This document shows positions 37,970 to 60,518 of a stretch of 64,000 nt of DNA, piece by piece. Numbering within the stretch: position 1 is the stretch's first letter; every line of letters begins with the position of its first letter. This DNA is from Streptomyces globisporus (GTDB lineage Bacteria; Actinomycetota; Actinomycetes; Streptomycetales; Streptomycetaceae): contig BMTG01000003.1 in the NCBI GenBank assembly GCA_014649555.1, positions 554,694 through 618,693 on the forward strand, read 5' to 3'. The position numbers and the translations under genes were made by a program. A model generated the notes under the pieces. It worked only from the letters and a program-made list of their open reading frames with translations. It had not been told where the DNA came from and did not search any database.

Positions 37970-38584
37970 ATGGCCGAGAAGGGCGGACGCGGACTGATGG
38001 TCCTGCACTCGTCACCTTTGATACGCAAGGCGATCCTCGATCTGTTCCGGGGCGATCCGAGCGTCACCGTACTGGGGGGCTGCCCCCACCCGACCGCGGT
38101 CGGCAGCCTCCCCGGCGGCCGGCCCGACGTGGCGCTCGTGGAGTACGAGCAGTGGCAGGAGGTCCTCGGCAACCTGCCCTACTGGAGCGGCACCCGCGTC
38201 ATCCTCTACAGCAGGGACAACGCCCCCCGCAGCGTCGTGGACTGCATCAGGGGCGGCGCCGCCGGGTTCGTCCACGAGTCGTGCCCGCCCGAGTCCATCG
38301 TCAAGGGGCTGCACGAGGTGCTGAGCGGACGCGGCTTCTGGCATCTGGGCGCGGACGAGCCGCAGCCGGAGACCCGGAAGGCCGGGCCGGTAGGCGCGTG
38401 GAAGCTGAGCGGGCGCGAGGAGGAGATCCTCGGCCTCTTACTCCGGCGGCGTTCCAACGAGGAGATCGCCCAGGAGCTCTGCCTCACCCAGCAAACCGTC
38501 AAGAACTACGCGAGCCGGGTCTTCCACAAGGTGGGCGTATCCGGGCGCAAGGAGCTGTTCAGAATGCTGAGGCCCTGCGGATGA
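37970..38584 (+). CDS. LuxR-family regulator with atypical receiver domain
   Basis: A 204-aa NarL/LuxR-type regulator. The C-terminal helix-turn-helix is canonical: LSGREEEILGLLLRRRSNEEIAQEL then LTQQTVKNYASRVFHKVG. The N-terminal receiver is degenerate. The acidic pair of motif 1 is absent (LMVLHSSPLIR), and the phospho-acceptor position reads PDVALVE with Glu instead of Asp. It may therefore work without a sensor kinase. The ATG at 37970 has a GAGGGG ribosome binding site; upstream codons in frame look non-coding. It overlaps the next gene (ATGA) and may be the cluster-situated regulator. Confidence 0.85.
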   Translation: MAEKGGRGLMVLHSSPLIRKAILDLFRGDPSVTVLGGCPHPTAVGSLPGGRPDVALVEYEQWQEVLGNLPYWSGTRVILYSRDNAPRSVVDCIRGGAAGFVHESCPPESIVKGLHEVLSGRGFWHLGADEPQPETRKAGPVGAWKLSGREEEILGLLLRRRSNEEIAQELCLTQQTVKNYASRVFHKVGVSGRKELFRMLRPCG

Positions 38585-39372
38585 CACCGTCACCGACCGC
38601 GCCCGAACCGGCGGCGAGCCCCCTCCTGGCCGAGCGGAACGGACGGGTGGTCACTCTCACACTGTGCCGCCCGCACCGCCGCAATGCGATGTCCACCGCA
38701 ATGCTGGAGCATCTCGCGGCCGAATTAATGCAGTTGACAAACTCGAAGGACGGGGCCCCGGGCGCGTTGGTGCTCACCGGGGCCGGTGGGACCTTCTCCA
38801 GTGGCGCGGACACCCGGGAACCCGACTGGCGCGATCTGTCCCGCCGCGCGGTGCGGCGGGCCCACTTCCGCACGGTGTTCGAGGCGTTGCACGAGGCCCC
38901 CTTCCCCGTGGTCGCGGCCGTGGAGGGGTACGCGCTCGGGGGTGGGCTCGAACTGGCCCTGGCCTGCGATCTGGTGGTGGCCGGCGAGGGCGCCCTGTTC
39001 GGGCTCCCGGAGCTCGGCGTGGGTGCGGTGCCGGGCGGCGGGGCGGTTCACTCGCTGCTGCGCCGCGCCGGACGCGGGGTGGCGGCCCGGATGCTGCTGA
39101 TACCCGGGGAGCGCGTACGGGCCGACGAACTCGCCCGGCTCGGCGCGGTCGAGCGCACGGTACCCGACGGCGAGGCGCTCGCAGCGGCGCGGGAGCTGGC
39201 GGCGTCCGTGGCTGCCGGAGATCCGGCACTCCTGACCGCGGGGGTCCGGCTACTGCGGGACTCCGGGCACCTGGACCGCACGAGCGCGCTCGGGGTGGAG
39301 AACGGCTACTGGTGGCAGGCCGCTTCGGCCGCGAACCGCGAGCCGGCCCTCCCCGGGGTCACCCCCTCCTGA
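38581..39372 (+). CDS. Enoyl-CoA hydratase/isomerase
   Basis: A 263-aa crotonase-family enzyme. The CoA oxyanion-hole segments are SSGADTRE and GYALGGGLELALACDL, and both catalytic Glu positions of true hydratases are present (GGGLE and FGLPELG). It is translationally coupled to the LuxR-type regulator. It could hydrate or dehydrate an acyl-CoA intermediate for the neighbouring polyketide-type pathway; its exact step is unknown. Confidence 0.85.
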   Translation: MTPSPTAPEPAASPLLAERNGRVVTLTLCRPHRRNAMSTAMLEHLAAELMQLTNSKDGAPGALVLTGAGGTFSSGADTREPDWRDLSRRAVRRAHFRTVFEALHEAPFPVVAAVEGYALGGGLELALACDLVVAGEGALFGLPELGVGAVPGGGAVHSLLRRAGRGVAARMLLIPGERVRADELARLGAVERTVPDGEALAAARELAASVAAGDPALLTAGVRLLRDSGHLDRTSALGVENGYWWQAASAANREPALPGVTPS

Positions 39373-39457
39373 ACACCCCGCGACAGAAGCGCTTCGCGCC
39401 ACCGCCGGTAGGCGCTTCGTTGCAGCAGGTGAACCGCCCCGTTACTCTGTTGATCAG

Positions 39458-39475
39458 ATTCAGTAATCAGTGAAT
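39458..39475. promoter_or_regulatory. Possible operator upstream of the ABC exporter
   Basis: An imperfect 18-bp inverted repeat, ATTCAGTAATCAGTGAAT (7 of 9 positions paired), lies in the AT-richer stretch about 115 bp before the ABC ATPase gene. Its size fits a TetR- or MarR-type site. A GbsR/MarR-type regulator is encoded at 58840, but no direct link is visible. Confidence 0.35.
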
Positions 39476-39588
39476 GTGCTGTACGTGCCGTACGCCTGTC
39501 ACTGACCCCCCACCCCCGATGCCCGCCGGACGACCCCGGCCGACCGTGGACGCACGAGCCGTGGGCGCAAGAGGAGAGCAGAAGAGAC

Positions 39589-40545
39589 GTGACCCCTCTC
39601 ATCGAATGTACGGATGTCACCAAGAAGTTCGGTGACTTCACCGCGCTGAGCCGGCTGAACCTGACGGTCCCCCAGGGCGTGGTCTACGGCTACCTGGGCC
39701 CCAACGGGGCAGGCAAGAGCACCACGATCCGGATGCTCATGGGCCTGTCCCGGCCCACCTCCGGCCAGGTCCGGGTGCTCGGCCAGGACCCGACCGACCC
39801 CGAGGTCCGCGGGCGCATCGGCTACCTCCCGGGCGAACTGCGACTGGACGACCGGCTGACGATCGGGCAGACGCTCGCGTCCTGGGGGCGGCTGCGCGGG
39901 CTGACGGACACCGCCCACCGGGACGACCTGGTCCAACGGTTCGGCATCGACCCCTCGCGCAAGGTGCGCGGACTCTCCACCGGCAACCGCCGGAAGGTGG
40001 GCCTGGTCGGCGCCTTCATGGCCCGGCCGGAGCTCCTGATCCTGGACGAACCGACCAACGGGCTCGACCCGTTGATGCAGCAGGTGTTCCTCGGCACCGT
40101 CGAGGAGGCCCGGGACAACGGCCAGAGCGTGCTGCTCTCCTCGCACATCCTCTCCGAGGTCGAGCGCGTCGCCGACCTGGTCGCGGTGCTCCAGGGCGGC
40201 AAGCTCGCCGCCTCCGGCCCGACGCGGGAGTTGCGCCGCCGCGCCGCGCAGCGCTTCCACATCACCTTCGCCGAGGGCGAGGAGGTCCCGCTCACCGGGC
40301 TGGCCGCTCTGGGCGGGGCGTCGGCAGTGGAGCGCCGCGCCCCCGACGGCCAAGAGGTCTCGCTGGCCTGGGCCGGATCGCCCGACGCGCTGCTGGCGTT
40401 CCTGGCGGGCCGCCGGATCACCACGCTCACCGCGCCGGAACCGGACCTGGAGGAGGCGTTCCTGGAGTACTACCAGAGCGACGTCCCCGGCAGCCGGGGC
40501 GCCACGGCCGAGGAGCCGTCACCGGCCGCCGACCCGGTGCGATAG
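39589..40545 (+). CDS. ABC exporter ATP-binding protein (DrrA-like)
   Basis: A 318-aa ATPase of the antibiotic-export (DrrA/CcmA) group. It has Walker A GYLGPNGAGKSTT, the signature variant LSTGNRRKVGLVGAF (LSTGN instead of LSGGQ), Walker B LLILDEPTNGLDP and the H-loop SSHILSE. The GTG start is preceded by GAGGAGAG. It pairs with the permease at 40618. Its place at the start of the biosynthetic cluster suggests export of, or self-protection from, the product, for example an ionophore. Confidence 0.88.
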   Translation: MTPLIECTDVTKKFGDFTALSRLNLTVPQGVVYGYLGPNGAGKSTTIRMLMGLSRPTSGQVRVLGQDPTDPEVRGRIGYLPGELRLDDRLTIGQTLASWGRLRGLTDTAHRDDLVQRFGIDPSRKVRGLSTGNRRKVGLVGAFMARPELLILDEPTNGLDPLMQQVFLGTVEEARDNGQSVLLSSHILSEVERVADLVAVLQGGKLAASGPTRELRRRAAQRFHITFAEGEEVPLTGLAALGGASAVERRAPDGQEVSLAWAGSPDALLAFLAGRRITTLTAPEPDLEEAFLEYYQSDVPGSRGATAEEPSPAADPVR

Positions 40546-40617
40546 CCGCGTACCCCACCGCCACGGGTCTCACGTCACCAAGGCCGCTCCCCCGGGCCGG
40601 CCGGAAGGGAAACACAC

Positions 40618-41424
40618 ATGTCATCGCCCAGCTCGGAGATCTTCCGGCGCGGAGTACAGATCCAGAAGCGCACCCTGATCGCCTGGTCGGCCGCGCTGGT
40701 CCTGCTCGCACTCTCCGTCGTCGGCGCCTGGCCGTCGATGGAGAAGTCCGGCGCCCTGGAGGACTTCGCCTCCGGCGTCTCGCCGGAGATGGCCGCGGCC
40801 TTCGGGATCGACCAGATCAGCAGCGCCAGCGGCTACCTCAAGGGGAACCTGTACGCGGTGCTGCTCCCGCTGCTCCTAGGCCTGATGGCCGTGACCGCGA
40901 CCGCCGCCCTGACCGGCGGCGACGAGGAGGCCGGGCGGCTGGAACTGCTTCTCGCGCTGCCGGTCGCCCGCCGCACCGTCTTCCTGGTGCGGTTCCTCTG
41001 CGTCGCCTTCGGACTGGCCGTCACCAGCGCGCTGGTGTGGCTGTCGGTGTACGGCTCCGTCGTCTCCCTGGACATGGACGTCTCCGGCGGCGGGGTCACC
41101 GCCGTGACGTTGACGGTCGGACTGCTCGCCGTGCTGCACGCGGGGATCGCGTACGCCGTCGTCGGCTTCGGTCTCGGCCGCGGCCCGGCGCTCGGCGCGG
41201 CCGCGGGCGTGCTCGTCGTCGGCTATCTGCTGCACGCCATCGCACCCATGTCCGACACCCTGGAGCCGCTGTCGAACGTGTCCCCCTGGGAGTGGGCGCT
41301 GGGCAGCGACCCGCTGGTCAACGGGGTCCCGTGGGGAGGGGTCGCCTTGCTGGTGGGCCTCGCCGCCGTGGTCGTCGCCGTCGGCACGTACGCGGTGGAC
41401 CGACGGGACGTCAAGAACGCCTGA
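40618..41424 (+). CDS. ABC-2 type exporter permease
   Basis: A 268-aa membrane protein with about six helices. The first helix (LIAWSAALVLLALSVVGAWP) is followed by an extracytoplasmic loop, then LLPLLLGLMAVTATAALTGGDEEAGRLELLLALPVARR, the charged coupling segment typical of ABC-2 permeases. It starts 72 bp after the ATPase gene and forms the channel of that exporter. A terminator hairpin follows, which separates this pair from the ketosynthase operon. Confidence 0.85.
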   Translation: MSSPSSEIFRRGVQIQKRTLIAWSAALVLLALSVVGAWPSMEKSGALEDFASGVSPEMAAAFGIDQISSASGYLKGNLYAVLLPLLLGLMAVTATAALTGGDEEAGRLELLLALPVARRTVFLVRFLCVAFGLAVTSALVWLSVYGSVVSLDMDVSGGGVTAVTLTVGLLAVLHAGIAYAVVGFGLGRGPALGAAAGVLVVGYLLHAIAPMSDTLEPLSNVSPWEWALGSDPLVNGVPWGGVALLVGLAAVVVAVGTYAVDRRDVKNA

Positions 41425-41435
41425 CCCGCAACGCC

Positions 41436-41614: not shown

Positions 41615-42907
41615 ATGGACAGCAGCCGAGACCCTTCCCCGGACCCCTCCGATCCCGTCGTGCTGACCGGCATCGGGTGCGTGCTGCCCGGCACCCCCGA
41701 TGTCCATGCCTTCTGGAGCCATGTCTCCACCGGAACGTCACAGGTGACCCGGCTGGAGAAGCCGGCATTCGCCGCCGCCGGGCTTCCGGTGCACGCGGCC
41801 GCGCAGCTCGGCGCGTTCGACACCGCGGCCCGGCTGCCGGACCTCGCTCCGGCCCATGCCGCGAAGTACAACCGGGACATCCTGGCCACGATGGCCGCCG
41901 TCGGCGACGCGCTCGCGGACGCCGGGATCACCCGGGGCCAGATCGCCCCGGAGCGGCTGAGCATCGTCCAGTCCTCCTCCCGCGGCCCGCTGTCCTGGTG
42001 GGCCGAGACCATCACGTCGGGCCCGGAGCAGGACCCGTACGCCGGCAAGGCGACGGCCATGTTCCGCGGGCTGGCCGGCTGCCCGGCCACCCTGGCCGCC
42101 ATTGCCGTCGGGGCGAAAGGCCTGGTCACCACGGTCAGCAGTGCCTGTGTCGGCGGCCATCACGCGATCGGCCTCGCCCTGCGCGAACTGCGGTCGGGCA
42201 GCGCCGACGTGGTGCTCGCCGGGGGCCACGAGTTCCCGATCACGCCCGAGGTCGCCCGCTGCTACCTGGGGCTCGGGGACGGAGTTCTCTCACCGGAGCG
42301 TGAGGACCCCGGCACCGCCGTCCGTCCCTACGACCGGGACCGGCGCGGATTCGCCCTGGGCGAGGGCGCGATGACGCTCTGTCTGGAGCGTGAATCGTCC
42401 GCCCGGGCGCGCGGCGCCCGGATCTACGCGCGGGTCCTGGGCCACCGCGCCCTCAACGAGGCCCACCACGCCACCAGCATGGACCTGGTCGGGGACGTCA
42501 CCGCCTCGGTCGTCTCCGGGGTACTCGACGACGCCGGGCGCAAGCCGGAGGAGATCGGCTACGTCTGCGGCCATGGCACCGCCACCCGGTACAACGACCT
42601 CGCCGAGAGCCGTGCCCTGCGCAGGCTGCTGCCGCACCACGACGACGCGGACCTGCCGCCGCACGGCTCCAACAAGCCGATCTACGGCCACACCTTCGGC
42701 ATGGCCGGGATCATCAACGTCGCCGCCACCTCGCTGATGCTCCACCACCAGCGGCTGGCCCCGACCGCCAACCACCGCACGCCGGACCCGGAGTGCGACC
42801 ACGACCACGTCGCCGAGGGGCCGCGCGACACCGAGTTCGACCTCGCGGTCTCGCTGTCCTTCGCCTTCGGCTCGCAAACCTCCGTCATGGCCCTGGAGCA
42901 CGCATGA
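41615..42907 (+). CDS. Beta-ketoacyl synthase, KAS II (FabF) type, canonical active site
   Basis: A 430-aa condensing enzyme and the first gene of the large biosynthetic operon. The full Cys-His-His set is present: Cys178 in TVSSACVGGHH, His320 in VCGHGTATRYND and His359 in KPIYGHTFGMAG, with the conserved Lys354. It should therefore carry out ordinary decarboxylative C-C condensation. The cluster lacks an acyl carrier protein, so its substrates are probably CoA thioesters. In the macrotetrolide system it would be one of the C-C-forming ketosynthases (NonP, NonQ or NonU). It overlaps the next gene by ATGA. Confidence 0.88.
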   Translation: MDSSRDPSPDPSDPVVLTGIGCVLPGTPDVHAFWSHVSTGTSQVTRLEKPAFAAAGLPVHAAAQLGAFDTAARLPDLAPAHAAKYNRDILATMAAVGDALADAGITRGQIAPERLSIVQSSSRGPLSWWAETITSGPEQDPYAGKATAMFRGLAGCPATLAAIAVGAKGLVTTVSSACVGGHHAIGLALRELRSGSADVVLAGGHEFPITPEVARCYLGLGDGVLSPEREDPGTAVRPYDRDRRGFALGEGAMTLCLERESSARARGARIYARVLGHRALNEAHHATSMDLVGDVTASVVSGVLDDAGRKPEEIGYVCGHGTATRYNDLAESRALRRLLPHHDDADLPPHGSNKPIYGHTFGMAGIINVAATSLMLHHQRLAPTANHRTPDPECDHDHVAEGPRDTEFDLAVSLSFAFGSQTSVMALEHA

Positions 42908-44679
42908 CCACAGCGCCCGAGCGTCCCCTCGCCGGCACTCCCTACCTGGCGAGCGGCCCCGACGACCTGATCAGCCGCTTCGTCCGCGCGGGTGACCACG
43001 TGCACGCGGCGGCGACCATGTCGCGGCCCAATGCCCTGCTGAACGCGGTGTGCCGCACCTTCGCGGGAAGCCGCAGCCTGACCGTGAGCACCACCGCCGT
43101 GCACTCCAGCGCGCACGCGCTGGCCCTCTCCGGAGCCGTACGCAAGGTGATCACCGGATTCGTCGGGGACACCTACCCCTCGCCGCGCCCCAACCGCCTC
43201 TACCGCGAACTGGCCGAGGGCAGGCCGTTCGAGATGGAGATGTGGTCGCTGCTGAGCTACACCCAGCGGCTGATGGCCGGGGCGCTCGGCCAGCCCTTCG
43301 CCACCACCGGCTCGATGCTCGCCGAGACCGACCTCCGGCACGGCAAGGAGGGCGTCCTCCACTCGGTGCCGCACCCCGAGGACCCGGCGCGCACGGTCAC
43401 CCTGCTCAGCCCGCTGCGCCCGCGCCTCACCCTCTTCCACGGCGTCGTCGCCGACCGCCGGGGCAACGTCGTGGCGTGTCCCCCGCTGGGCGAGGGAGCC
43501 TGGGCCGCGTACGCGGCGACCGACGGCGTCCTCGCCTCGGTGGAGGCGATCGTCGACGACGAGGTGATCGCGGCGATGCCCGACCGGGTGGTGATCCCCG
43601 CCGCCCGCGTCCTCGGTCTGTGCGAGGCCCCGCTCGGCGCCCACCCGCAGTCGCTGCGTACGGGCGGGCTCGCCGGAGTGGACGGCTATCTCGACGACTA
43701 CGCGTTCCTCACCGACATCGTGGCCGCCTGCAAGACCCCGGAGACCGCCGCCGCCTGGTACGAGGAGTGGGTCGGCGGAGTGCCGGACCACGCCGCGTAC
43801 GTGGAGAGGCTGGGCGCGCGGCGCCGTAACGAACTGGTCTTCCCCGCTCCCCCGGGCGGTCCCGCCGCCGCGGGGAAGACCCCCGCCACGGTGCCGGCCG
43901 GCACCGGGCCCACCGAGCAGGAGCAGCTGATCGTGCTCGGCGCCCGCACCGTCGCGGACCTGGTGCGGGAGCGCGGCTACGACACGCTGCTCGCCGGGAT
44001 CGGCACCTCGCACATGTCGGCGTGGCTGGCGGCCCGGCTGCTGGCGGACGACGGCGTCCAGGTGCAGGTGGCCGCCGAACTGGGCCTGCAGTCGATGGAT
44101 CCCGCTCCCGGGGACGTCTTCCTCTTCAGTCAGCGGCACGCGGAGCGTTCGCAGATGCTGTCGGGGGTCGCGGAGACACTGGGCGGCGCGGTCGCCGCCA
44201 ACCCTCGCTGCCTGGGCGTGCTGTCGGCTGCGGAGCTCGACCCGGACGCCAACATCAACACGACGCTGCTGCCGGACGGCCGGTGGATCACGGGCTCCGG
44301 CGGGGCCAACGACATCGCCTCGTCCGTGGACTGCGTGGTGATCGCGGTCGCCTCGGCCCGCCGCTACGTCCCGCGGCTGACCCACCTGACCAGTCCGGGC
44401 CTGCGGGTCCGCGAGGTGGTCAGCCAGTTCGGCCGCTTCACCCGGCCGGGAGCCGGCACCGCCTTCGAACTGACGAGCTGGCTGCCGCCGGTACCCGGAC
44501 GGGGCCGCACGGAGGCGGACCTCCCCGACGGGCCCGAGGCGGCGGTCCGCGACCTCACCGGCTGGGATTTCCCCGACGGCTCGACGGGGGTCGGCGCGTT
44601 CCTGACCGACGAGAAGCCCGTCACCAGCGAAGAACTCTCGCTCCTGCGCACCATGGACCCGGAAGGCTTCTACCGATGA
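42904..44679 (+). CDS. Fused CoA-transferase (alpha and beta domains)
   Basis: A 591-aa protein with two class I CoA-transferase halves. Residues 1 to about 312 are the alpha-like half (FVRAGDHVHAAATMSRPNALL, LFHGVVADRRGNVV). An Ala/Pro/Gly linker of about 25 residues follows, and then the beta-like half from about 340. That half has AAELGLQ, with Glu392 as candidate catalytic residue, and GSGGANDIA. It would move CoA between acyl donors. Succinyl-CoA is a precursor of nonactic acid, so making or recycling a dicarboxyl-CoA starter is a reasonable inference. It is coupled to its neighbours at both ends. Confidence 0.82.
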   Translation: MTTAPERPLAGTPYLASGPDDLISRFVRAGDHVHAAATMSRPNALLNAVCRTFAGSRSLTVSTTAVHSSAHALALSGAVRKVITGFVGDTYPSPRPNRLYRELAEGRPFEMEMWSLLSYTQRLMAGALGQPFATTGSMLAETDLRHGKEGVLHSVPHPEDPARTVTLLSPLRPRLTLFHGVVADRRGNVVACPPLGEGAWAAYAATDGVLASVEAIVDDEVIAAMPDRVVIPAARVLGLCEAPLGAHPQSLRTGGLAGVDGYLDDYAFLTDIVAACKTPETAAAWYEEWVGGVPDHAAYVERLGARRRNELVFPAPPGGPAAAGKTPATVPAGTGPTEQEQLIVLGARTVADLVRERGYDTLLAGIGTSHMSAWLAARLLADDGVQVQVAAELGLQSMDPAPGDVFLFSQRHAERSQMLSGVAETLGGAVAANPRCLGVLSAAELDPDANINTTLLPDGRWITGSGGANDIASSVDCVVIAVASARRYVPRLTHLTSPGLRVREVVSQFGRFTRPGAGTAFELTSWLPPVPGRGRTEADLPDGPEAAVRDLTGWDFPDGSTGVGAFLTDEKPVTSEELSLLRTMDPEGFYR

Positions 44680-45719
44680 CCACGACCGCCGAGACCGTCC
44701 CCGACCCGGCGACGGCCCACCTCAGGCCGCTGCCCCCGACCGCGATCGCTCCGGTGCGGCTCGCGGGGATCGGCCACTACTTCCCCGGTGAGCCGATCAC
44801 CAACGCCCACTTCGAGCAGCTCGACGCGCTGGGCATCGACGACGCCTGGATCCGTGAGAACACCGGGATCGTCAGCCGCCACTGGCCGGCCGACGAGAAG
44901 GAGCGCGCGGTGGAGATGGCGGCCAGGGCGGTGGACGACGCGTTGAGCGCCGCCGGTCTGGCCCCCGACGACATCGACCTGGTCATCGGCACGACGTCCA
45001 CGACCCGGCCGCGTACCAACCCCTCCAGCGCCACCAACAACTACATGGACATCTCGCTGCCGCTGCAGAAGCAGGTGGGGCTGCGTCACGCCACCTGCTT
45101 CGACGTCACCTCCGTGGCCTGCGCGGGCTTCATGTACGGCACCGCGACGGCCGCCGCGATGCTCCCGGCGCTCGGCATGCGCAACGCGCTGGTCGTCTGC
45201 GCGGAGAACCCCCGCCCGATCCTGAACTTCGACTACCGCTACTCGGCGCTGTTCGGGGCGGGGGCCGCCGCGGCGGTCTGGTCGGCGGACACGGCGGAGC
45301 GCGGTCTGCTGGACGTGGCGCTGCACGCGGACGGTTCGTACTTCGACGCCTTCGACATCGACGAGAACGACAAGATGCTGATGCGCGGGCGAGAGGTCGG
45401 CGCGGTCGGCCCGAAGCTGCTCTCCCACGTGGGCCGGGAGATCCTGGAGCGCAACAGCCTGACGGTGGACGACATCGACTGGTTCGTGCCGCACCAGGGC
45501 AACCTGAACATGATCAACCAGGTGTGCCAAACGCTGGAGATCCCGCGCGAGAAGCTGCTGACCAACATCCAGGAGCGGGGCAACACCTCCAGCGTCTCCA
45601 TCCCGAGCTGCCTCTCGGAGAACCTGCGCGCGGGGAAGATCCGCTCCGGCGATCTCGTCGCGACCATCGGCATCGGGCGCGGCTTCAGCTGGGGCGCGAT
45701 GCTCCTGCGCATCCCGTGA
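44676..45719 (+). CDS. Ketosynthase III (FabH-like), first of two
   Basis: A 347-aa KAS III-family enzyme with the complete triad: Cys149 (SVACAGFMYG), His273 (FVPHQGNLNMI) and Asn303 (RGNTSSVSIP). FabH-type enzymes condense an acyl-CoA with a malonyl unit; here both partners may be CoA esters. It probably starts or extends the chain from succinyl-, propionyl- or acetyl-CoA. The ATG overlaps the CoA-transferase stop. It is one of five ketosynthases in the operon. Confidence 0.88.
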   Translation: MTTTAETVPDPATAHLRPLPPTAIAPVRLAGIGHYFPGEPITNAHFEQLDALGIDDAWIRENTGIVSRHWPADEKERAVEMAARAVDDALSAAGLAPDDIDLVIGTTSTTRPRTNPSSATNNYMDISLPLQKQVGLRHATCFDVTSVACAGFMYGTATAAAMLPALGMRNALVVCAENPRPILNFDYRYSALFGAGAAAAVWSADTAERGLLDVALHADGSYFDAFDIDENDKMLMRGREVGAVGPKLLSHVGREILERNSLTVDDIDWFVPHQGNLNMINQVCQTLEIPREKLLTNIQERGNTSSVSIPSCLSENLRAGKIRSGDLVATIGIGRGFSWGAMLLRIP

Positions 45720-45784: not shown

Positions 45785-46753
45785 ATGCAGGACGAGACCT
45801 CCATGTGGCGCGAGAGCGGACTGCGCCTGTCCGGATTCGGGCACTACTACCCACGCCTCCTGGTCGAGAACGAGAGCGCCGAGGACCCCGCCGGCAGCGC
45901 GGTGGACGAGGCGGTCATCGGGCGGCTGGACGTCCGCAGCCGCCATGTCGCGGACGAGGAGGAGACCCCCGCGTACATGGGCGTGCGCGCCGCCCGCGCG
46001 GCACTGGAGCAGGCGGGCGTCACGCCCGGCGAGATCGACCTGGTGGTCTTCAGCAACTGGACCGACCGCCAGTTCGTCCCCGAGTGGGCCCCGCACACCG
46101 CCCATCTGCTGGGCGCGGAGGGGGCGTTGGCCTTCGACGTGTGCGGCGCCTGTACGGGCTTCGTGCACGGGGTCCAGACGGCTGCGGCGTACTTCGGCAC
46201 GCACGCGGACTGGCGGCACGCGCTCGTCGTCTCCAGCGAGCGCTTCTCGCGCCGGGTCCGGCCCGGCAGCAAGGGTGAGCTGATCGTGGGCGACGCGGCC
46301 GGGGCGGCCGTACTCTCACGCGGCGCGGAGCCGGACGCGGGGCTGTGGGACTCGCTGCTGATCAGTGACGGTTCCGGCCGGGAGACGGTGACGGTGTACC
46401 CGCCCAACGGGTGGATCAGAAGCAGCCGGGAGCTGGTCTCCGTAGCGGCCGACTCCCACGCCGATCTGGCCGCCCGGATGCTGGCCCGTTCGGGCACCAA
46501 GATGGAGGAGATCGACTGGGTGGTGCCGCACCCGGGCACGGGTCAACTGCACACCGCCGTAAGGGAACGCCTCTCCATCCCGGAGGAGCGCTTCATCACC
46601 AACTACGAGACACGGGCGAACACCGGCAGCGCCTCGGTGCCCATCGTGCTCTCCGAAATGGCGCTGGACGGCCGGCTGAAGCCGGGCGACCTCTGCTACA
46701 CGCCCACGGTGGGGTCCGGCTGGTACTACGGAGGGCTGCTCTTCCGTGTCTGA
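45785..46753 (+). CDS. Ketosynthase III (FabH-like), second of two
   Basis: A 322-aa KAS III-like protein, shorter at the N-terminus than its neighbour. The triad is intact: Cys123 in CGACTGFVHG, His249 in VVPHPGTGQLH and Asn279 in RANTGSASVP. The 65-bp gap before it is one of the few non-overlapping junctions in the operon. It could perform the second C-C condensation of the monomer, or the homologous step on an alternative starter. Its stop region overlaps the following ketoreductase gene by 8 bp. Confidence 0.87.
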   Translation: MQDETSMWRESGLRLSGFGHYYPRLLVENESAEDPAGSAVDEAVIGRLDVRSRHVADEEETPAYMGVRAARAALEQAGVTPGEIDLVVFSNWTDRQFVPEWAPHTAHLLGAEGALAFDVCGACTGFVHGVQTAAAYFGTHADWRHALVVSSERFSRRVRPGSKGELIVGDAAGAAVLSRGAEPDAGLWDSLLISDGSGRETVTVYPPNGWIRSSRELVSVAADSHADLAARMLARSGTKMEEIDWVVPHPGTGQLHTAVRERLSIPEERFITNYETRANTGSASVPIVLSEMALDGRLKPGDLCYTPTVGSGWYYGGLLFRV

Positions 46754-52692: not shown

Positions 52693-53504
52693 GCGCCGCG
52701 GGAGGAACGGGTGCGCCGCCGGTCGCTCTGGTCGCCGGGGCGTCCTCCGGCATCGGAGCCGCTGTCGCCCGCCGACTGGCCGCGCGTGGGAGTGCCGTGG
52801 CGCTGGTCGGCCGGCGGGAGGCCGAGCTGAAGGAGGTCGCGGAGTCGATCCGCGCGGCCGGGGGCACCGCCCTGCCGCTCGCCCTGGATCTGGCCGAGCC
52901 GGGCGGCCCCGCCGACGCGGTCGCCATGACCACCGCCGCGCTGGGGCAGGTGGGGCTGCTGGTGTGCAGCGCGGGCGCGATCCGGCTGGCCGCCGTCCAC
53001 GAGACGGAGGAGCGGCACTGGGAGCGGCAGCTGCGGGTGAATCTCACGGTGCCGTTCCTGCTGGCCCGCGAGGTGCTGCCCGGGATGCGGGAGCGCGGCT
53101 GCGGCTGGGTCGTGAACATCGGTTCGGGCGTGGGCTCGGAGGTGGTGCCGGGCAGCGGCGGCTACGGAGTCAGCAAGCACGCCGTGCACCGGCTCACCGA
53201 GCTGATCCACGAGGAGAACCGCGACCGGGGCATCCGCGCGGTCACCGTCGCACCGGGCTGGGTCTCCACGCGGCTCGCGGCCCGCCCCGCCGACCTCGGG
53301 GTCCCCGAGGAGGAGGTGCTGGACGCGGAGGACATCGCTGACACCGTCGCCTGGCTGCTGGACCGGCCGGCCCGGATGAGCGTCGGCCCCCTGATCCGCG
53401 TCGAGCCCTCCGCGAGCCGGGCGGCCGCCGGGGACGCCATGACCCGCCATCTGAACCGCTCCCGCGCCGAGGGCGCCGGACGGGCTGCTGAGGAGAACCG
53501 CTGA
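52689..53504 (+). CDS. SDR-family ketoreductase 4
   Basis: A 271-aa short-chain dehydrogenase with AGASSGIG for NADP(H) binding, CSAGAI, the Ser-containing NIGSGVGSE and YGVSK. A GTG start overlaps the tandem SDR stop, and the stop overlaps the following ATG by one base (TGATG). It probably reduces one of the keto groups of the growing acyl-CoA. Confidence 0.85.
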   Translation: MSAAGGTGAPPVALVAGASSGIGAAVARRLAARGSAVALVGRREAELKEVAESIRAAGGTALPLALDLAEPGGPADAVAMTTAALGQVGLLVCSAGAIRLAAVHETEERHWERQLRVNLTVPFLLAREVLPGMRERGCGWVVNIGSGVGSEVVPGSGGYGVSKHAVHRLTELIHEENRDRGIRAVTVAPGWVSTRLAARPADLGVPEEEVLDAEDIADTVAWLLDRPARMSVGPLIRVEPSASRAAAGDAMTRHLNRSRAEGAGRAAEENR

Positions 53505-55213
53505 TGGGCAGGACCACTCTCGTCGAGCACGACGTGCCGGTGGAGATGCGCGACGGAACGGTGCTGCGCGCCGATGTGTGGCGGCCCGCCGACGGGCCGC
53601 CCTCCCCCGCCGTCCTGTTCCGCACGCCGTACGGCAAGTCCCCGCTGGGCCTTGCCACCTTGACCCCGGCGCAATGCGTGGACCGGGGGTACGCGGCGGT
53701 CGTGCAGGACACCCGGGGCCGGTTCGGCTCGGAGGGCGAGTGGGCCCCGCTGGACTGGTCGCGGGAAGGCCCGGACGGGTACGACACCGTCGAGTGGACC
53801 GCGGGACAGCCGTGGTGCGACGGGAACGTGGCCATGGCGGGCACCTCGTACCAGGCGATCGTGCAGTGGCTGGCCGCGATGGAGAAGCCGCCGCACCTGC
53901 GGGCCATCGCGCCGACGATGTCCACCTCCGCGCCGTTCGACGCCGAGCAGCTTGGCGGCTCGCTGCGGCTTGACCACCTCACGAGCTGGCTCGGTCTGAC
54001 GGCTCTGGAGTGGGTGCAGCGCCGGGCGGCGGCGGGCGATCCGGTGGACGGGGCGGTCGTCGCCGAGGTCGTGCAGTTGCTCACCACACCCGAAGTTCCC
54101 CTGCGACGCTGGCCGTTGTCGACGATCCTCGACTTCGAGGGGTTTCCCGGCCGGCTGCGGGACATCTTCGCGGGGAAGGTGGCGACGGTGGCCGACTACC
54201 GCCTCGGCGAGGTCGGTGTCCCCACGTTCTCGGTCGGCGGCTGGTACGACGTGTTCTCCCACGGCACGATCGAGCTCCACCGGGCGATGCGCGCCCAGGA
54301 TCCGGTGGCCGGACGGCATGAGCTGGTCGTCGGCCCCTGGGTCCACTCCGGCCAACTTCCGCAGGTGCAGGGCGAGGTGAACACGGGACCGTACGGCTCG
54401 GCGCAGGGCGCCCGGCTGGCGGATCTGCACCTGGACTTCTTCGACCGCCATCTGCGTCCGTCCGCGGCGGACGCCGGGACGGCGGCGGGTGGTGACGTCC
54501 GGTACTTCCTCTTCGGTGACGACACCTGGCACCGTGCCGAGAGCTGGCCGCCGCCCGAGGCCGTGGACAGCCCGTGGTACCTGGCAGGTCCGGAGGGCGG
54601 CGAGGAGGACGGCAGGCTGCTGCCGGAACCTCCGCAGGAGGGCTTCGGGCAGGACGCGTTCACCTACGATCCGGAGAACCCGGTGCCTTCGCACGGCGGG
54701 CGGGTGCTCCAGCTCGGCCGACTCGCGGCGGGCCCGCTCAACCAGGCTCACCTGGAGGCCAGGCCGGACGTGCTCCTCTACACCTCGGAGCCGCTCACCG
54801 AACCGCTGGACGTCGTCGGCCGGCAGCGGCTGCGGCTCCGCTTCGGCTCGGACGCGCCCGCCACCGCCGTCGTCGCCAAGCTCACCGACGTCCACCCGGA
54901 CGGGCGTTCACTGCTGGTGGCCGAGGCGAGTCTCCGGTTGGACACCGGGAACGGCGCCCCGCCGGACGAGCCGTACGACGCCGATCTGCTGCTCGGGGAC
55001 ACCGCGTGGCGCTTCGCTCCCGGGCACCGGCTGCGCGTCCACGTGACCAGCAGCAACTTCCCCCACCTGGACCGGCATCCGAATGTGCCGGGCCCGGTGG
55101 GCGAGGCGGAGCACTGCCGGCCGGCGCGGCAGACCGTCTGGTACGGCGGCCCGTACGAGAGCGTGCTGCGGCTGCGGGTGCTGCCCGCGCCGAGCACCGG
55201 GGGGATCGCGTGA
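53504..55213 (+). CDS. CocE/NonD-family hydrolase
   Basis: A 569-aa serine hydrolase of the X-Pro dipeptidyl-peptidase/cocaine-esterase group. The N-terminal alpha/beta domain has the characteristic LFRTPYGK and DTRGRFGSEGEW, and the nucleophile Ser in MAGTSYQA. A C-terminal jelly-roll domain follows (FGSDAPATAVVAKLTDVHPDG). No signal peptide is present, so it acts in the cytoplasm. CocE-like enzymes are named partly after NonD of the nonactin cluster, which supports the macrotetrolide reading. It could hydrolyse or transfer an acyl ester of the pathway. Confidence 0.85.
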   Translation: MGRTTLVEHDVPVEMRDGTVLRADVWRPADGPPSPAVLFRTPYGKSPLGLATLTPAQCVDRGYAAVVQDTRGRFGSEGEWAPLDWSREGPDGYDTVEWTAGQPWCDGNVAMAGTSYQAIVQWLAAMEKPPHLRAIAPTMSTSAPFDAEQLGGSLRLDHLTSWLGLTALEWVQRRAAAGDPVDGAVVAEVVQLLTTPEVPLRRWPLSTILDFEGFPGRLRDIFAGKVATVADYRLGEVGVPTFSVGGWYDVFSHGTIELHRAMRAQDPVAGRHELVVGPWVHSGQLPQVQGEVNTGPYGSAQGARLADLHLDFFDRHLRPSAADAGTAAGGDVRYFLFGDDTWHRAESWPPPEAVDSPWYLAGPEGGEEDGRLLPEPPQEGFGQDAFTYDPENPVPSHGGRVLQLGRLAAGPLNQAHLEARPDVLLYTSEPLTEPLDVVGRQRLRLRFGSDAPATAVVAKLTDVHPDGRSLLVAEASLRLDTGNGAPPDEPYDADLLLGDTAWRFAPGHRLRVHVTSSNFPHLDRHPNVPGPVGEAEHCRPARQTVWYGGPYESVLRLRVLPAPSTGGIA

Positions 55214-56877
55214 GCGACGACATACTCGACCCGGCGTCCGCCGCCGTGCCCACCGCCGAGCAGTGCGTCCTGGGCCCGCTGCTGCGCCGCCGTGCCGCCG
55301 CCGCGCCGGACGCTCCGTACGCGCTGATGCCGGACGGGGACCTCTGGACGTACGCCCGGACGCTCCGGGAGACCGAGGAGTCGGCCGCCGCCCTCCAGGC
55401 GCTGGGCGTCGCCCCGGGCGAGCTGGTGCTGAGCTGGCTGCCCAACGGGCCCGACGCGCTGCGCGTCTGGTACGGGGTCAACCTGGCGGGCGCGGTCCTG
55501 GTACCGCTGAACATCGCCTACCGCGGCGCGATTCTGCGTCAGGTGATCGCTGACAGCGGGGCCGGCGTGCTGATCTGCCGGCCGACGCTGGCGGCCCGGC
55601 TGGAGGAGGGGAGCGAGCGGGTCGGGGCGGTACGCACGGTGGTGCTGCTGCCGGGACCCGAGGACGCGCCGGAGGAGGTGGCGGCCCTCGCCGGCCGGCT
55701 CGCCGGGCGCTACCGGGTGGAGACCGGACTGCGCTCGGACCGGGCGGAGTTCACCGAGCCGGTGCCCGCCCCGCAGCCGTGGGACCCGCAGACGGTGATC
55801 TACACCTCCGGTACGACCGGCCCGTCGAAGGGGGTGGTCTCCTCCTACGCGCATTTGTACTCCAGCTGCACCGCCGCCTTCCACGGCATGGCCGGTCCGG
55901 ACGACCGCTATCTGCTCCAACTGCCCCTGTTCCACGCGGGCGGCACGATCGGCGCGTACGGGATGCTGGTGCACGGCGGATCGGTGACGGTCGTCCCCGC
56001 CTTCACCACCGGCGAGTTCTGGCCGCTGATCCACCGTACGGGGACGACGCTGTGCACCCTGCTCGGGGTGATGGCGACCTATCTCCTCAAGCAGCCACCG
56101 CTTCCGCAGGACACCGGGCATCCGCTGCGCGCGGCCTACGTCATCCCGTTCACCGAAGGGGCGACGGAGTTCTCCAAGCGGTTCGGCGTCCAGGTCCGCG
56201 CGTTGTTCAACATGACCGAGGTCGCGTGCCCGGTGCTCTCCGCGCCGGACCAGCACCCGGGCGTTCCGATGCACTGCGGGCCGCCCCGGCCGGGCATCAC
56301 CGCCCGCGTCGTCGACGACCACGACCGGGAGGTTCCGGTGGGCGAGGCGGGCGAACTGGTGCTGCGGCCCGATCGCCCCTGGTCCTTCCTCACCGGCTAT
56401 CTCGGCCGTCCCGCCGAGACGGCCGCCGTCTGGCGCAACGGCTGGTTCCACACCGGGGACGCGTTCCGGCGTGCCCCGGACGGCGGACTGGTCTTCGTCG
56501 ACCGCAAGAAGGATGCCATCCGCCGGCGCGGCGAGAACATCTCGTCGTTCGAGGTGGAGGCGCAGGCCGTGGCCCACCCGGGCGTACTGGAGGCGGCGGC
56601 GGTCGCGGTCCCCGGCGACGAGGGCGAGGACGAGGTGCTGCTGGTGGTGGCGGACCGCGACCCGGCGGACCCGGTGGACCCGGCGGCGCTGCTGGAGTTC
56701 CTCCGGGAGCGGCTGGCCCATTTCATGCTGCCGCGGTACATCCGGGTGCTGCCCGAACTGCCCAAGACCCCCACCGGCAAGCCGACCAAGCACACGCTGC
56801 GCGCCGACGGAGTGGTGGCGGGGACGTGGGACCGCGAGGCCGCCGGGGTCCGCGTCCGCAGGGAGAGGATCGTATGA
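55210..56877 (+). CDS. nonL: Acyl-CoA synthetase (AMP-forming), NonL-like
   Basis: A 555-aa ANL-superfamily ligase. Motifs are YTSGTTGPSKGVV (AMP-binding P-loop), NMTEV, WFHTGDAF and the hinge DRKKDAIRRRGENIS; the C-terminal catalytic Lys lies in KTPTGKPTKH. It activates a carboxylic acid with ATP to the CoA thioester. In macrotetrolide biosynthesis NonL converts free nonactic acid to nonactyl-CoA before oligomerisation, and the gene lies next to the nonS-like gene here. The symbol rests on cluster context, not on alignment. GTGA and ATGA overlaps join it to its neighbours. Confidence 0.8.
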   Translation: MSDDILDPASAAVPTAEQCVLGPLLRRRAAAAPDAPYALMPDGDLWTYARTLRETEESAAALQALGVAPGELVLSWLPNGPDALRVWYGVNLAGAVLVPLNIAYRGAILRQVIADSGAGVLICRPTLAARLEEGSERVGAVRTVVLLPGPEDAPEEVAALAGRLAGRYRVETGLRSDRAEFTEPVPAPQPWDPQTVIYTSGTTGPSKGVVSSYAHLYSSCTAAFHGMAGPDDRYLLQLPLFHAGGTIGAYGMLVHGGSVTVVPAFTTGEFWPLIHRTGTTLCTLLGVMATYLLKQPPLPQDTGHPLRAAYVIPFTEGATEFSKRFGVQVRALFNMTEVACPVLSAPDQHPGVPMHCGPPRPGITARVVDDHDREVPVGEAGELVLRPDRPWSFLTGYLGRPAETAAVWRNGWFHTGDAFRRAPDGGLVFVDRKKDAIRRRGENISSFEVEAQAVAHPGVLEAAAVAVPGDEGEDEVLLVVADRDPADPVDPAALLEFLRERLAHFMLPRYIRVLPELPKTPTGKPTKHTLRADGVVAGTWDREAAGVRVRRERIV

Positions 56878-57767
56878 GCCAGGACATACCCGACGCGGGG
56901 CAGGAGTTCGCGGCCGAGTGGGCGGGGGCGGCGACCGAGTCGTTCGCGGACTTCGCGGACCGGGTGGACGGCAAGGAGGACGTACCGCTGCGGGCCTCCC
57001 TGGCCGACGGGGTCGCCACCCTGACGCTGGACCGGCCGCGCCGACGCAACAGCCTCGATCTGGCGCTCTCCCGCCATCTGCTGCTCGGGCTGATGTGCGC
57101 GGGCGACGACCGCCGGGTGCGCACGGTCGTGATCACCGGGAGCGGCGGGGCGTTCTGCGCGGGCGACGATGTGGAGAGCGTACGGAGGTGGCGGCTGGGC
57201 GACCGGACGGACACCCCCTTCGACCCGATCACCTCGGACGCCCACTACCTCCGGGTCTGCGAGGCGATCCTGCATCTGCCGAAGCCGGTGATCGCGGGGC
57301 TGACCGGAGCGGCGGCGGGCGCCGGGGCGGAGATCGCCTGCGCCGCCGACTTCCGGCTGGCGGACACCCGTGCCTCGATCGGCAGTTGCCTGGCGGGGGT
57401 CGGCCACGTGGGGAACGTGGTGCTGATGTCCCGGCTGACCGGGCCTGCGCGGGCGACGGAGATCTATCTCACCGGGCGCATGGTCTCGGGGGACGAGGCG
57501 GTGCGGCTGGGCCTGTTCGACCGGCTCTGCGCGCCGGAGGATTTCGACCGCGAACTGACGGAGCTGGCAGGCCGGTTCGCCGCGCTGCCGACCGCCTCGG
57601 TGGGCCTGTTCAAGGAGTTGCGCGAGCGGAGCTGGGGGCAGCCGGCCGAGTACGGGCTGCGGCTCCAGGACGCGTACCACCTCAAGACACATGGCACGGT
57701 GGCCGACGCCCGTGAGGGTATGGCCGCGTTCGCGGAGAAGCGCCCGCCGCGTTTCACCGGCGACTGA
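56874..57767 (+). CDS. nonS: Crotonase-family protein, probable nonactate synthase
   Basis: A 297-aa enoyl-CoA-hydratase homologue with the oxyanion-hole segments CAGDDVESV and GAAAGAGAEIACAADF. Of the two hydratase Glu residues, the first is kept (GAGAE), but the second, normally within a PE motif, is missing (ASIGSCLAGVG). It also has an N-terminal extension of about 40 residues. NonS of the nonactin cluster belongs to this family and closes the tetrahydrofuran ring by intramolecular oxa-Michael addition. Position just before a 279-aa hydrolase mirrors the known nonS-nonR neighbourhood. It is the last gene of the coupled operon. Confidence 0.78.
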   Translation: MSQDIPDAGQEFAAEWAGAATESFADFADRVDGKEDVPLRASLADGVATLTLDRPRRRNSLDLALSRHLLLGLMCAGDDRRVRTVVITGSGGAFCAGDDVESVRRWRLGDRTDTPFDPITSDAHYLRVCEAILHLPKPVIAGLTGAAAGAGAEIACAADFRLADTRASIGSCLAGVGHVGNVVLMSRLTGPARATEIYLTGRMVSGDEAVRLGLFDRLCAPEDFDRELTELAGRFAALPTASVGLFKELRERSWGQPAEYGLRLQDAYHLKTHGTVADAREGMAAFAEKRPPRFTGD

Positions 57768-57772
57768 GGGAC

Positions 57773-57985: not shown

Positions 57986-58825
57986 ATGACCGGCCCCGAG
58001 AGCCGTACCGTCGCCGGCTCCCGCGTGGTGGAGACGGCGCACAGTGCCGAGGTCTCCGGCGCCCGGCTGCACTACTGGACGGCCGGTGCGCCGGACCGTC
58101 CGGGCATCGCGCTGACCCATGGTGCGGGGGCCGACCACCGCATGTTCGATCCGCAGATCCCGGCCCTGGTGGAGGCCGGCTTCCGCACCCTGCGCTGGGA
58201 CGTGCGCTACCACGGCGCGTCCGCCTCCGGCACCGGCAGATTCCGTACGGTCTACGCGGCGGACGACCTGGCGGCGCTGCTGGACGCGGCAGGGATGGCC
58301 CGGCCGCTGGTGCTGCTGGGCCAGTCGATGGGCGGCAACATCTCCCAGGAGTACCTGCGCCGCCGGGCCGACGAGGTCACCGCGCTCGTGGTGATCGGCT
58401 CCACGTCCAGCACCCTGCCCATCACCCGGCGCGAACGGCGCGCTCTGGCCCTCTCGCGCGCCCTCATGCGGCTGGTCCCCTACCGCCGTCTCACCCGGTC
58501 GATGGCTCTGGCGTCGGCCGTGGACGCCGGGGCCCGCACGTATCTGCGTGAGACCTTCGCGGCCAACGGGCGGCGCGCCTTCCTCACCACCTGGGACGGC
58601 ATGACCCGGGCGATCGATCCGTCGCCCGGCTACCGCGTGGAGAAGCCCGAGCTCCTGATCTGCGGCGAACACGACGGCACGGGTAACATCCGCTCGGCGA
58701 TGGAGCGATGGAGCGAACGCGATCCCCACAGCGAGTTCCATGTGATCCCCGGTGCCGGACACGTCGCCAATCTGGACCGACCCGACGAGGTCAACCGGCT
58801 GACCGTCGCCTTCCTGAAGGCCTGA
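57986..58825 (+). CDS. nonR: Alpha/beta hydrolase, probable macrotetrolide-resistance esterase
   Basis: A 279-aa (about 30 kDa) serine hydrolase. The nucleophile Ser114 lies in LLGQSMGGN (GxSxG), an oxyanion segment is THGAGADHRM, and Asp and His are in CGEHDGT and GAGHVANLDRP. The start has GAGGAG 7 nt upstream. It lacks a signal peptide. NonR, the self-resistance protein of nonactin and tetranactin producers, is an esterase that opens macrotetrolides, and its gene lies beside nonS. The match in family, approximate size and position supports the name. It has its own promoter region after the operon terminator (about 160 bp). Confidence 0.72.
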   Translation: MTGPESRTVAGSRVVETAHSAEVSGARLHYWTAGAPDRPGIALTHGAGADHRMFDPQIPALVEAGFRTLRWDVRYHGASASGTGRFRTVYAADDLAALLDAAGMARPLVLLGQSMGGNISQEYLRRRADEVTALVVIGSTSSTLPITRRERRALALSRALMRLVPYRRLTRSMALASAVDAGARTYLRETFAANGRRAFLTTWDGMTRAIDPSPGYRVEKPELLICGEHDGTGNIRSAMERWSERDPHSEFHVIPGAGHVANLDRPDEVNRLTVAFLKA

Positions 58826-58839
58826 GACCTGACGAGACC

Positions 58840-59367
58840 ATGACTGCCGACGAGACCATGCACGATGACGACCTCACGCCCGACTCGGGGCCCCTCCCCT
58901 CCACCGGTTCCGGGGAGTTCAGCGCCGCGGAGGCGGCCTTCATCAGCGAGATGGGTTCGCTCATGGAGCGGTGGGGCCTCCCGCAGGCCACCGGACGCCT
59001 CTTCGGCTACCTCCTGCTGCGCAACAAGCCGGTGGACCTCGACACCATGACCCGCGAACTCGGCCAGGCGAAGAGCGGACTGAGCGTCGCCGCCCGCCAG
59101 TTGGAGGCATGGACGCTGGTGCGGCGCACCACCCGACCCGGCAGCAGGCGGATCGACTACGAGGCCGTGGGCGACCTCCAGCACCTGCTGCTGGTGAACA
59201 ACGCCCATATGCGCAAGTTCACCGAGACGCTCACCTCGGGCGTCCCGGTGGCGCGTGGCGAGGCGCGGGACCGGTTGGCGTCGCTGGCCGAGCTGTTCAA
59301 CGGGTACGTGGAGCAGACCGAGGCGCTGGTGGCCGACTGGGAGGCCCGCCGCACCGCCGCCTCCTGA
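58840..59367 (+). CDS. GbsR/MarR-type transcriptional regulator
   Basis: A 175-aa winged-helix regulator of the GbsR-like branch of MarR. The DNA-binding part reads ATGRLFGYLLLRNKPVDLDTMTRELGQAKSGLSVAARQLEAW followed by the wing RRTTRPGSRRIDYEA in separate segments, and a C-terminal dimerisation helix region follows. Two nearly identical start contexts occur (GACGAGACCATG repeated at 58831 and 58849), so translation may begin at 58840 or 58858. It starts 14 bp after the esterase gene and is probably co-transcribed, perhaps sensing the product and controlling resistance. Confidence 0.82.
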   Translation: MTADETMHDDDLTPDSGPLPSTGSGEFSAAEAAFISEMGSLMERWGLPQATGRLFGYLLLRNKPVDLDTMTRELGQAKSGLSVAARQLEAWTLVRRTTRPGSRRIDYEAVGDLQHLLLVNNAHMRKFTETLTSGVPVARGEARDRLASLAELFNGYVEQTEALVADWEARRTAAS

Positions 59368-59474
59368 GCTTTCGTCCCCGTCCCCCCGCCCCCCCTCGGC
59401 CCCCCGCTGCCGAACCCGGTTCCCTCTCCCCAGAGTCCCGACTTCCCGAACTTCCCGACCCCGACGGAGTGATC

Positions 59475-60518
59475 GTGAACGTGTCGTACGACCTGGCGCC
59501 GCGCAACGGAACAGCGGCGGCGACCGCCGAGGCGGACCCCGCGGCCCCGGCACGGCGGAGCGTGGTGGACGCCTGCTCGCTGGTGTACGACGGCGCGGGC
59601 TGGCGGGCCTACCTGAACCGGCTGGGCGAGAACGCCCCCGAGTACCTGGACGTCTTCTCCGCCTCGTTCTCCCGGTACTTCGGGGCCTCGCACGCCGCGT
59701 ACCGCGAGGCGCTGGCCGTCCGGTGGCAGGACGCGGTGGACGTGCTGCTGCCGCCCGGCCGGCCGCCGTTCGACCTCGCCGCGCATCTCGCGGACCGGCA
59801 GCGGCAGGGCGTGACGGCGGAGTTCGCCATGGGCTCGGCGGAGCGGCTGCCGGACGGCCGCACCGTCAACGCGTGGCTGCTGGAGACCGTCCGGGAGGCC
59901 CGCGACCGGATCCACGTCTGGGCCGGGATCTCGCTGCGCGACCCGGCCGACGCACTGCGCGAGGTGGAGGGTTCGCTGGCGGCGGGGGCGTCCGGCCTGT
60001 GCGTGATCCCCTTCCTGGACGGCACCGACCCGGCGGACCCGCGGTTCGCCCCGGTCTGGGACGCGGCGGCCTCCGCCCGGTTGCCGGTCTGGCTGCACAC
60101 CGGCCACCACTTCGCCCGGAGCAGGCCCACCGGCCTGGGCAGCTGGCGCACGGTCGAGACACTGGCGGCACGCCACCGCGAGCTGCTGCTGGTGGCCGGG
60201 CACGCGGGGTGGCCCGACGTACGGGAGACACTGCTGACGGCCGCCCGGCACCCGGGGGTCCACCTGGAGTTCTCCTCGCACCGCCCCCGGCACATGGCCA
60301 AACCCGGCTCGGGCTGGGAGCCGCTGCTCCACCACGCCCGGGGTCTGGCCCGCGACCGGGTCATGTTCGGCACCTCGACCTGGGTCAATCCGGGACCGAC
60401 CGGGCCTCTGGCGGACGAGCTGGCCGAGCTGCCGCTGCCGGACGACGTCGTCACCGCCTGGCTCTCCGGTAACGCGGAGGCACTGGTAGCCCGCTCGGCC
60501 GCGGCTCACCGGGGCTGA
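59475..60518 (+). CDS. Amidohydrolase 2-family metal-dependent hydrolase/decarboxylase
   Basis: A 347-aa TIM-barrel protein of the amidohydrolase-2 (ACMSD-like) group. Conserved segments include AEFAMGSAERLPDG, WAGISLRDPADALREVE, a His pair in VWLHTGHHFARS, LLVAGHAGWPDVRE and VMFGTSTW near the C-terminus. The GTG at 59475 has GGAG 5 nt upstream; an in-frame GTG at 59469 overlaps that site. Relatives decarboxylate or hydrolyse small acids. It may handle a precursor or shunt product of the adjacent polyketide-type pathway, but membership in that pathway is only inferred from position. Confidence 0.75.
   Translation: MNVSYDLAPRNGTAAATAEADPAAPARRSVVDACSLVYDGAGWRAYLNRLGENAPEYLDVFSASFSRYFGASHAAYREALAVRWQDAVDVLLPPGRPPFDLAAHLADRQRQGVTAEFAMGSAERLPDGRTVNAWLLETVREARDRIHVWAGISLRDPADALREVEGSLAAGASGLCVIPFLDGTDPADPRFAPVWDAAASARLPVWLHTGHHFARSRPTGLGSWRTVETLAARHRELLLVAGHAGWPDVRETLLTAARHPGVHLEFSSHRPRHMAKPGSGWEPLLHHARGLARDRVMFGTSTWVNPGPTGPLADELAELPLPDDVVTAWLSGNAEALVARSAAAHRG

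Follow-up and report, generated by a model that had tools for sequence, protein, structure and literature searches.

Macrotetrolides are a known family of ionophore antibiotics, and the gene clusters behind them are the closest described systems to the locus analyzed here. The non cluster of Streptomyces griseus is described as encoding five type II ketosynthases (KSs) and four ketoreductases and no acyl carrier protein (ACP) (PMC10817512). Passages of the same paper on the din locus of S. globisporus SCSIO LCY30 (OR351017) give it a length of 12.0 kb and ten open reading frames (ORFs), with Dyn4 equated to NonS, Dyn5 to NonL, Dyn9 to NonJ, and Dyn10 to NonK (PMC10817512). According to a passage on strain DUT11, its nonactin cluster has 92% of the reference genes, most at 85-90% identity, nonactin homologues were detected by mass spectrometry, and nonactin is produced without nonI, the putative acetoacetate reductase gene of S. 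griseus (PMC6019454). A strain near S. anulatus is reported to make dinactin and nonactic acids and to carry a 27.5-kb cluster with 100% similarity to "dinactins" (PMC8866825), S. fulvissimus is named as a nonactin producer (PMC4979870), and the title of one reference connects S. werraensis with nonactic acid derivatives. As late as 2024, a paper described some steps of the macrotetrolide pathway as unconfirmed. Here we describe a cluster in a 64,000-nucleotide stretch of S. globisporus DNA, hereafter the window (bases 554694-618693 of contig C3, which ends at 618693, in a genome of 8.25 Mb), from whose first base all coordinates are counted. The cluster has 20 genes, all on the plus strand, between 37757 and 60518, and it very probably specifies a macrotetrolide of the nonactin/dinactin type, whose nonactic and homononactic acid units would be built as thioesters of CoA in a pathway without its own carrier protein.

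Gene models came from self-trained gene calling, and Pfam scans covered 30 frames between 33.8 and 63.8 kb. A sequence-only reading of this DNA had already proposed a macrotetrolide-like cluster, and its parts list was right for the genes that it named. The five KS genes at 41615, 44676, 45785, 48475, and 49853 have intact frames with Pfam ketosynthase or FabH-type domains, the fifth frame starting at GTG 49847 and having an in-frame ATG at 49853. Four short-chain dehydrogenase/reductases (SDRs; 46770, 47654, 51163, and 52689), an acyl-CoA ligase (55210), a crotonase (56874), and a 30.4-kDa alpha/beta hydrolase (57986) were likewise found by Pfam. The list had passed over a second crotonase (38581-39372), an ABC transporter pair (39589-41424), a hydrolase at 53504, and a MarR-like gene at 58840.

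The macrotetrolide assignment is backed by gene order at four named positions of the dinactin locus and by a family match to NonD. Read backwards from 60518 to 48475, the window presents ten genes in 12.04 kb with a crotonase fourth, a ligase fifth, KS3 ninth, and KS2 tenth, as in the published account of din, a likeness that consists of the four named ORF positions and the length, the other six din ORFs lying outside the comparison. Because the gene order matches the din locus at these positions, we assign the divergent FabF-type proteins KS3 (49847-51133) and KS2 (48475-49863) as probable NonJ-type and NonK-type ester-forming KSs, respectively, and their active-site residues point the same way. 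Gene order also argues for a NonL-type ligase (55210-56877; AMP-binding, PF00501, E = 5e-62) and for a NonS-type cyclase, or nonactate synthase, in crotonase B (56874-57767; PF00378, E = 6e-40). The protein encoded at 53504-55213, with Peptidase_S15 and PepX_C domains, matches the NCBIfam CocE/NonD family TIGR00976 at 637.7 bits (cut-off 66.3). Near the NonS-type gene, the alpha/beta hydrolase (57986-58825; PF00561, E = 3.4e-23) is a candidate NonR-type esterase by comparison of class and mass, with a putative role in resistance.

What the window lacks agrees with the sequence-only reading, which had seen no ACP, acyltransferase, or FabZ-type dehydratase. In a six-frame search of the organism's own genome, none of 38 matches to the carrier protein family PF00550, none of six to the acyltransferase family PF00698, and none of five to FAS1_DH_region (PF13452) fell inside the window. 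FabA/FabZ had no match among the Pfam-scanned frames, a negative that comes from those frames and not from a six-frame search. A motif for carrier-protein sites, narrow as a pattern, had no match beyond 36 kb among reading frames 50-200 residues long.

The active sites divide the KSs into two kinds. In alignments to FabF-type structures, with rows tabulated per KS type, KS1 (41615-42907; PF00109, E = 1.1e-33, and PF02801), a FabF-type decarboxylating enzyme that is probably NonU/P/Q-type, retains Cys, His, Lys, and His in 13 of 13 rows. KS2-type proteins retain the Cys and the second His and have Gly for the first His and Glu for the Lys in all 19 rows, which include six more distant KS2-like proteins of five genomes (G113, G137, G229, G284, and G285). 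The KS3 type shows the same retention, with Tyr (12 rows) or Phe (one row) for the first His and Glu for the Lys in 13 of 13 rows. Since many of the aligned rows are near-copies, these losses do not count as independent events. Loss of the first His in NonJ and NonK may have been described already by Kwon et al. 2002 (Science), and we claim no novelty for it. The two FabH-type KSs (44676-45719 and 45785-46753; both PF08541/PF08545) have Cys, His, and Asn motifs, read in the window proteins themselves: ACAGF, HQ, and NTS in the first, and in the second ACTGF by pattern together with PHPG and NTGS by eye. This distribution fits three decarboxylating enzymes that form carbon-carbon bonds (KS1 and the FabH-type pair) versus two ester-forming KSs (KS2 and KS3). 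NonJ and NonK are reported to be ester-forming (PMC10817512), and a similar first-His loss is in print for the FabH-like acyltransferase Pau29, there compared with CerJ (PMC4425429). An AlphaFold model of KS3 had a mean predicted local distance difference test score (pLDDT) of 56.4 and was left unused.

A maximum-likelihood tree was built from 41 KSs, namely nine rows per type, six KS2-like proteins, and eight of the genome's 17 other PF00109 matches. The sequence-only reading had asked whether the KSs might cluster with another pathway; in this tree, which is without aryl polyene or ladderane references and in which four of the eight other genome KSs lie outside modular polyketide synthase (PKS) frames, KS1-KS3 group with their syntenic counterparts, apart from those eight. 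The KS2 and KS3 types come together (97/90), separate from KS1 and from the other genome KSs; because long branches meet at the join, a single origin of the KS2/KS3-type lineage is suggested and no more than that.

The arrangement is shared with other members of the genus. With KS3 as the query and one genome per species, ten loci were recovered, and the cluster's closest named relatives belong to Streptomyces. Identity of KS3 was 90-95% in seven (S. californicus, S. microflavus, S. anulatus, CB02366, S. shenzhenensis, S. werraensis, and SID14436) and 74-76% in three (S. hygroscopicus ATCC 21589, TP-A0356, and S. megasporus). The ten relatives keep the order from KS1 to the amidohydrolase gene (59469-60518; PF04909, E = 1.4e-22) with two exceptions, one locus (L007) being cut by a contig end after KS3 and another (L010) having its last three genes inverted, and the proteins encoded from KS1 to the amidohydrolase are each 79.7-99.3% identical in L001-L007. 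At E <= 1e-40, KS3 is present in seven of 394 Streptomycetaceae genomes, our own included, always at 91% identity or more. Three of the ten syntenic genomes are of or near species with reported chemistry (S. microflavus, under which NCBI files S. fulvissimus, S. anulatus, and S. werraensis), a link at species level that runs through other strains.

Six wider regions were also compared, five from strains already among the ten relatives and one (G005) additional. The LuxR-type gene (37757-38584; GerE domain, PF00196, E = 1.1e-11), a probable pathway regulator, is present in all six, as are crotonase A (38581-39372; PF00378, E = 6.6e-41), the CoA-transferase (42904-44679; PF01144, E = 6.1e-23), and the amidohydrolase gene. 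The CoA-transferase, amidohydrolase, and LuxR genes had been put forward as possible signs of a variant; because all three are conserved throughout the wide syntenic regions, we reject that suggestion and assign no variant status. Between crotonase A and KS1, the ABC transporter ATPase (39589-40545; PF00005, E = 1e-28) and ABC-2 type membrane protein (40618-41424; PF12679, E = 1.5e-10) occur in four of the six regions and were not found at that place in G285 and G169.

Two further loci are more remote. One (L043-L044; G089:C1:4728000-4767999) is a rearranged, divergent macrotetrolide-like cluster with KS, CoA-transferase, SDR, S15, ligase, and cyclase genes at 42-60%; it has counterparts of all five KSs and four SDRs, plus a family III CoA-transferase, and possibly another product. 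The other (L049; G113:C88:1-20000) is a partial relative that carries a pair of KS2-like genes (46 and 39%), FabH types, a ligase, and a cyclase, and has no KS3 match within the 20 kb read.

Several observations weigh against a macrotetrolide assignment. TIGR00976 also takes in CocE-type hydrolases, and among the rows shown for ten scanned proteins no other matching NCBIfam model is named after a nonactin enzyme. The divergent G089 region shows no match to crotonase A or to the amidohydrolase, so these two may be non-essential, which is a mild counterweight. Moreover, the step roles of the CoA-transferase, crotonase A, the CocE/NonD hydrolase, and the amidohydrolase are ones that we infer. A macrotetrolide-like cluster with some other main product, such as a linear or cyclic dimer or homologues with unusual extender units, has to be considered. 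Such a reading overlaps the one preferred here; ring size and side chains are not fixed by sequence, and related strains are reported to form linear and smaller esters of nonactate alongside macrotetrolides. We regard it as unlikely, given the 79.7-99.3% identity across L001-L007 and the lack of an evident extra tailoring gene in the scanned frames.

A pamamycin-type macrodiolide cluster is harder to tell apart from a macrotetrolide cluster, since it would have the same core of KSs, ketoreductases, and a NonS-like enzyme, differing in an amino group and in the use of an ACP to extend one acid, and the two cannot be separated by the parts list alone. The published accounts describe a related pam operon (A,B,D,E,O,K,J,M,N,L,H) and a pathway that likewise starts from succinyl-CoA; PamS is a NonS homologue in one review (PMC4979870) and a putative hydrolase in another paper. 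What separates them is that pam has in addition a pamF,G,C operon, which includes the ACP gene pamC, as well as genes for an aminotransferase and a methyltransferase (pamX,Y), whereas the window has no ACP match and the 30 scanned frames gave no Pfam match to an aminotransferase or methyltransferase; on these grounds the pamamycin reading was rejected as very improbable. Aryl polyene, ladderane, and aromatic type II systems are defined by a pair of KS and chain length factor with an ACP. A cluster of this unrelated kind would account for the FabF-like KSs, and the PDB matches of KS1 include the actinorhodin KS (1tqy) and 6smo, but the missing ACP, the position of KS1-KS3 in the tree, the NonD match, and the gene order leave it next to no probability, and it too was rejected.

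Under the macrotetrolide reading, biosynthesis would proceed on CoA thioesters. The central carbons of nonactic acid derive from succinate extended at both ends, so that the second carboxylate of succinate needs activation, for which a glutaconate-type CoA-transferase is the best candidate. The fused alpha-beta family I CoA-transferase of the window aligns through residues 21-311 and 435-499 to chains A and B, respectively, of glutaconate CoA-transferase (1poi). The Glu of its ELG motif, conserved in all 7 aligned rows from a set of 12, matches the Glu of the ENG motif in the B subunit of a 3-oxoacid CoA-transferase in a weak alignment (E = 0.022). This enzyme likely activates the second carboxylate. 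The two FabH-type KSs and KS1, whose active-site residues are in place, would form carbon-carbon bonds among succinyl-CoA, malonyl-CoA, and (methyl)malonyl-CoA in an order that we propose tentatively, and the four SDR ketoreductases would set the hydroxyls.

Three of these reductases are SDRs 1 (46770-47657; PF13561, E = 9.2e-43), 2 (47654-48478; PF13561, E = 6.6e-59), and 4 (52689-53504; PF00106, E = 2.5e-44). SDR 3 (51163-52692), with its SDR domain at residues 239-481, is probably a two-domain, high-molecular-weight FabG of the FabG4 type. Foldseek ranks 1-7 are all proteins of this class (478-519 columns, TM 0.30-0.35, root-mean-square deviation 16-20) for a low-confidence predicted model (mean pLDDT 56.4), and we treat the assignment as a lead and not as a result. 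Searches of the PDB with this protein and both FabH-type KSs at strict cut-offs returned no matches, a threshold effect that carries no evidence.

The two crotonases differ in their catalytic residues. Both Glu positions are conserved in crotonase A (all 5 aligned rows, from a set of 7); crotonase B has the first but not the second (all 7 aligned rows, from a set of 13). From this pattern, crotonase A may be a CoA-level dehydratase that fills the place of the missing one, giving a 2-enoyl-CoA, and it suggests that crotonase B is a NonS-type cyclase, which by family and gene order would close the tetrahydrofuran ring through oxa-Michael addition. The NonL-type ligase would then supply nonactyl-CoA. 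KS2 and KS3 would each be acylated at Cys and catalyze the formation of ester (C-O) bonds; because the first His and the Lys are missing, decarboxylation of malonyl units is not expected of them. Joining of the units in this way would yield an ionophore from the series that runs from nonactin to tetranactin, a cyclic tetraester, with the ABC pair and the NonR-type hydrolase putatively serving export and self-protection.

None of the cluster's 20 frames contains an internal stop, and 10 of its 19 junctions overlap when crotonase A is counted from ATG 38581, a start that overlaps the stop of the LuxR gene. Before the amidohydrolase gene lies a weak MarR-like gene (58840-59367; PF12802 at 20.8 bits, under the 27-bit cut-off). 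The cluster had been taken to begin at 37970; the conserved block starts at 37757, and the end at 60518 stood. Just upstream is an APH-family kinase gene (36003-37079; PF01636) with no match in the six wide regions, which extend upstream of LuxR by about 3-6 kb and past the last gene by 2.4-7.6 kb. Downstream, adjacent genes for a Ku-domain protein and an ATP-dependent DNA ligase (61913-63824) are probably an end-joining pair. As neither the kinase gene nor the Ku and ligase genes are matched in the wide regions, the ends of the cluster were set at 37757 and 60518.

NonK-like KSs also occur in other surroundings. In all five places read by gene calls or annotation, a KS about 50-53% identical to KS2 lies directly upstream of one type I PKS frame of about 2100 amino acids (L048:10121-17780 of G137, L058:7959-15832, L059:7959-15789, and regions L045 of G229 and L046 of G285). 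Two of the five lie next to IPT/TIG and DUF5988 genes on linear plasmids. The G137 PKS, the sole one scanned, has ketosynthase, acyltransferase, dehydratase, enoylreductase, ketoreductase, and ACP domains, and the four chromosomal NonK-like KSs tabulated retain the Cys and second His and have lost the first His and Lys. In 26 of 295 Streptomyces genomes the only matches to KS2 are at 39-53%, with G089 and G113, of another kind, among them, and 22 plasmid records match KS2, all below 60%. A narrow look at the literature found no description of a function for such KS and PKS pairs; S. coelicolor SCO6826-SCO6827, a locus that one paper lists, might be another pair of this kind. A broader proposal can be framed, in which the pathway is fully CoA-tethered, the CoA-transferase re-activates succinate for two-way growth, and NonK and NonJ belong to one non-decarboxylating lineage, arising from a single loss of His and Lys, that includes, as ester-forming, chain-releasing enzymes, the NonK-like KSs found with a fully reducing, single-module type I PKS on chromosomes and linear plasmids of Streptomyces. 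We hold this proposal to be speculative, and somewhat doubtful as a whole.

The locus looks like a well-preserved, further instance of an antibiotic family already known in Streptomyces, with only some mechanistic details of fresh interest. It adds a candidate producer of these ionophores, and the ten syntenic clusters, at two depths of divergence, reveal genes that travel together, including those for the CoA-transferase, the CocE/NonD hydrolase, and the amidohydrolase. The active-site split between C-C and C-O bond-forming KSs gives a simple prediction for mutation and assay. The parts suspected of marking a variant are ordinary; the identity of the product and several step assignments are what we infer.

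Set beside the described systems, the window contains the same set as the non cluster of S. griseus, five type II KSs and four ketoreductases with no ACP. Counterparts of NonS, NonL, NonJ, and NonK are assigned by gene order and accompanied by a NonD-family protein, a likeness of arrangement and not of aligned sequences. Two further nonactin-type clusters, hmn of Streptomyces sp. SCSIO 66814 and cluster 26 of DUT11, for which nonactin homologues are reported by mass spectrometry, are likened to the window by description. The din locus, as reported in the passages on it, seems to end at NonK, and beyond that point the window adds KS1, the CoA-transferase, two FabH-type KSs, two SDRs, the transporter, crotonase A, and the regulator.

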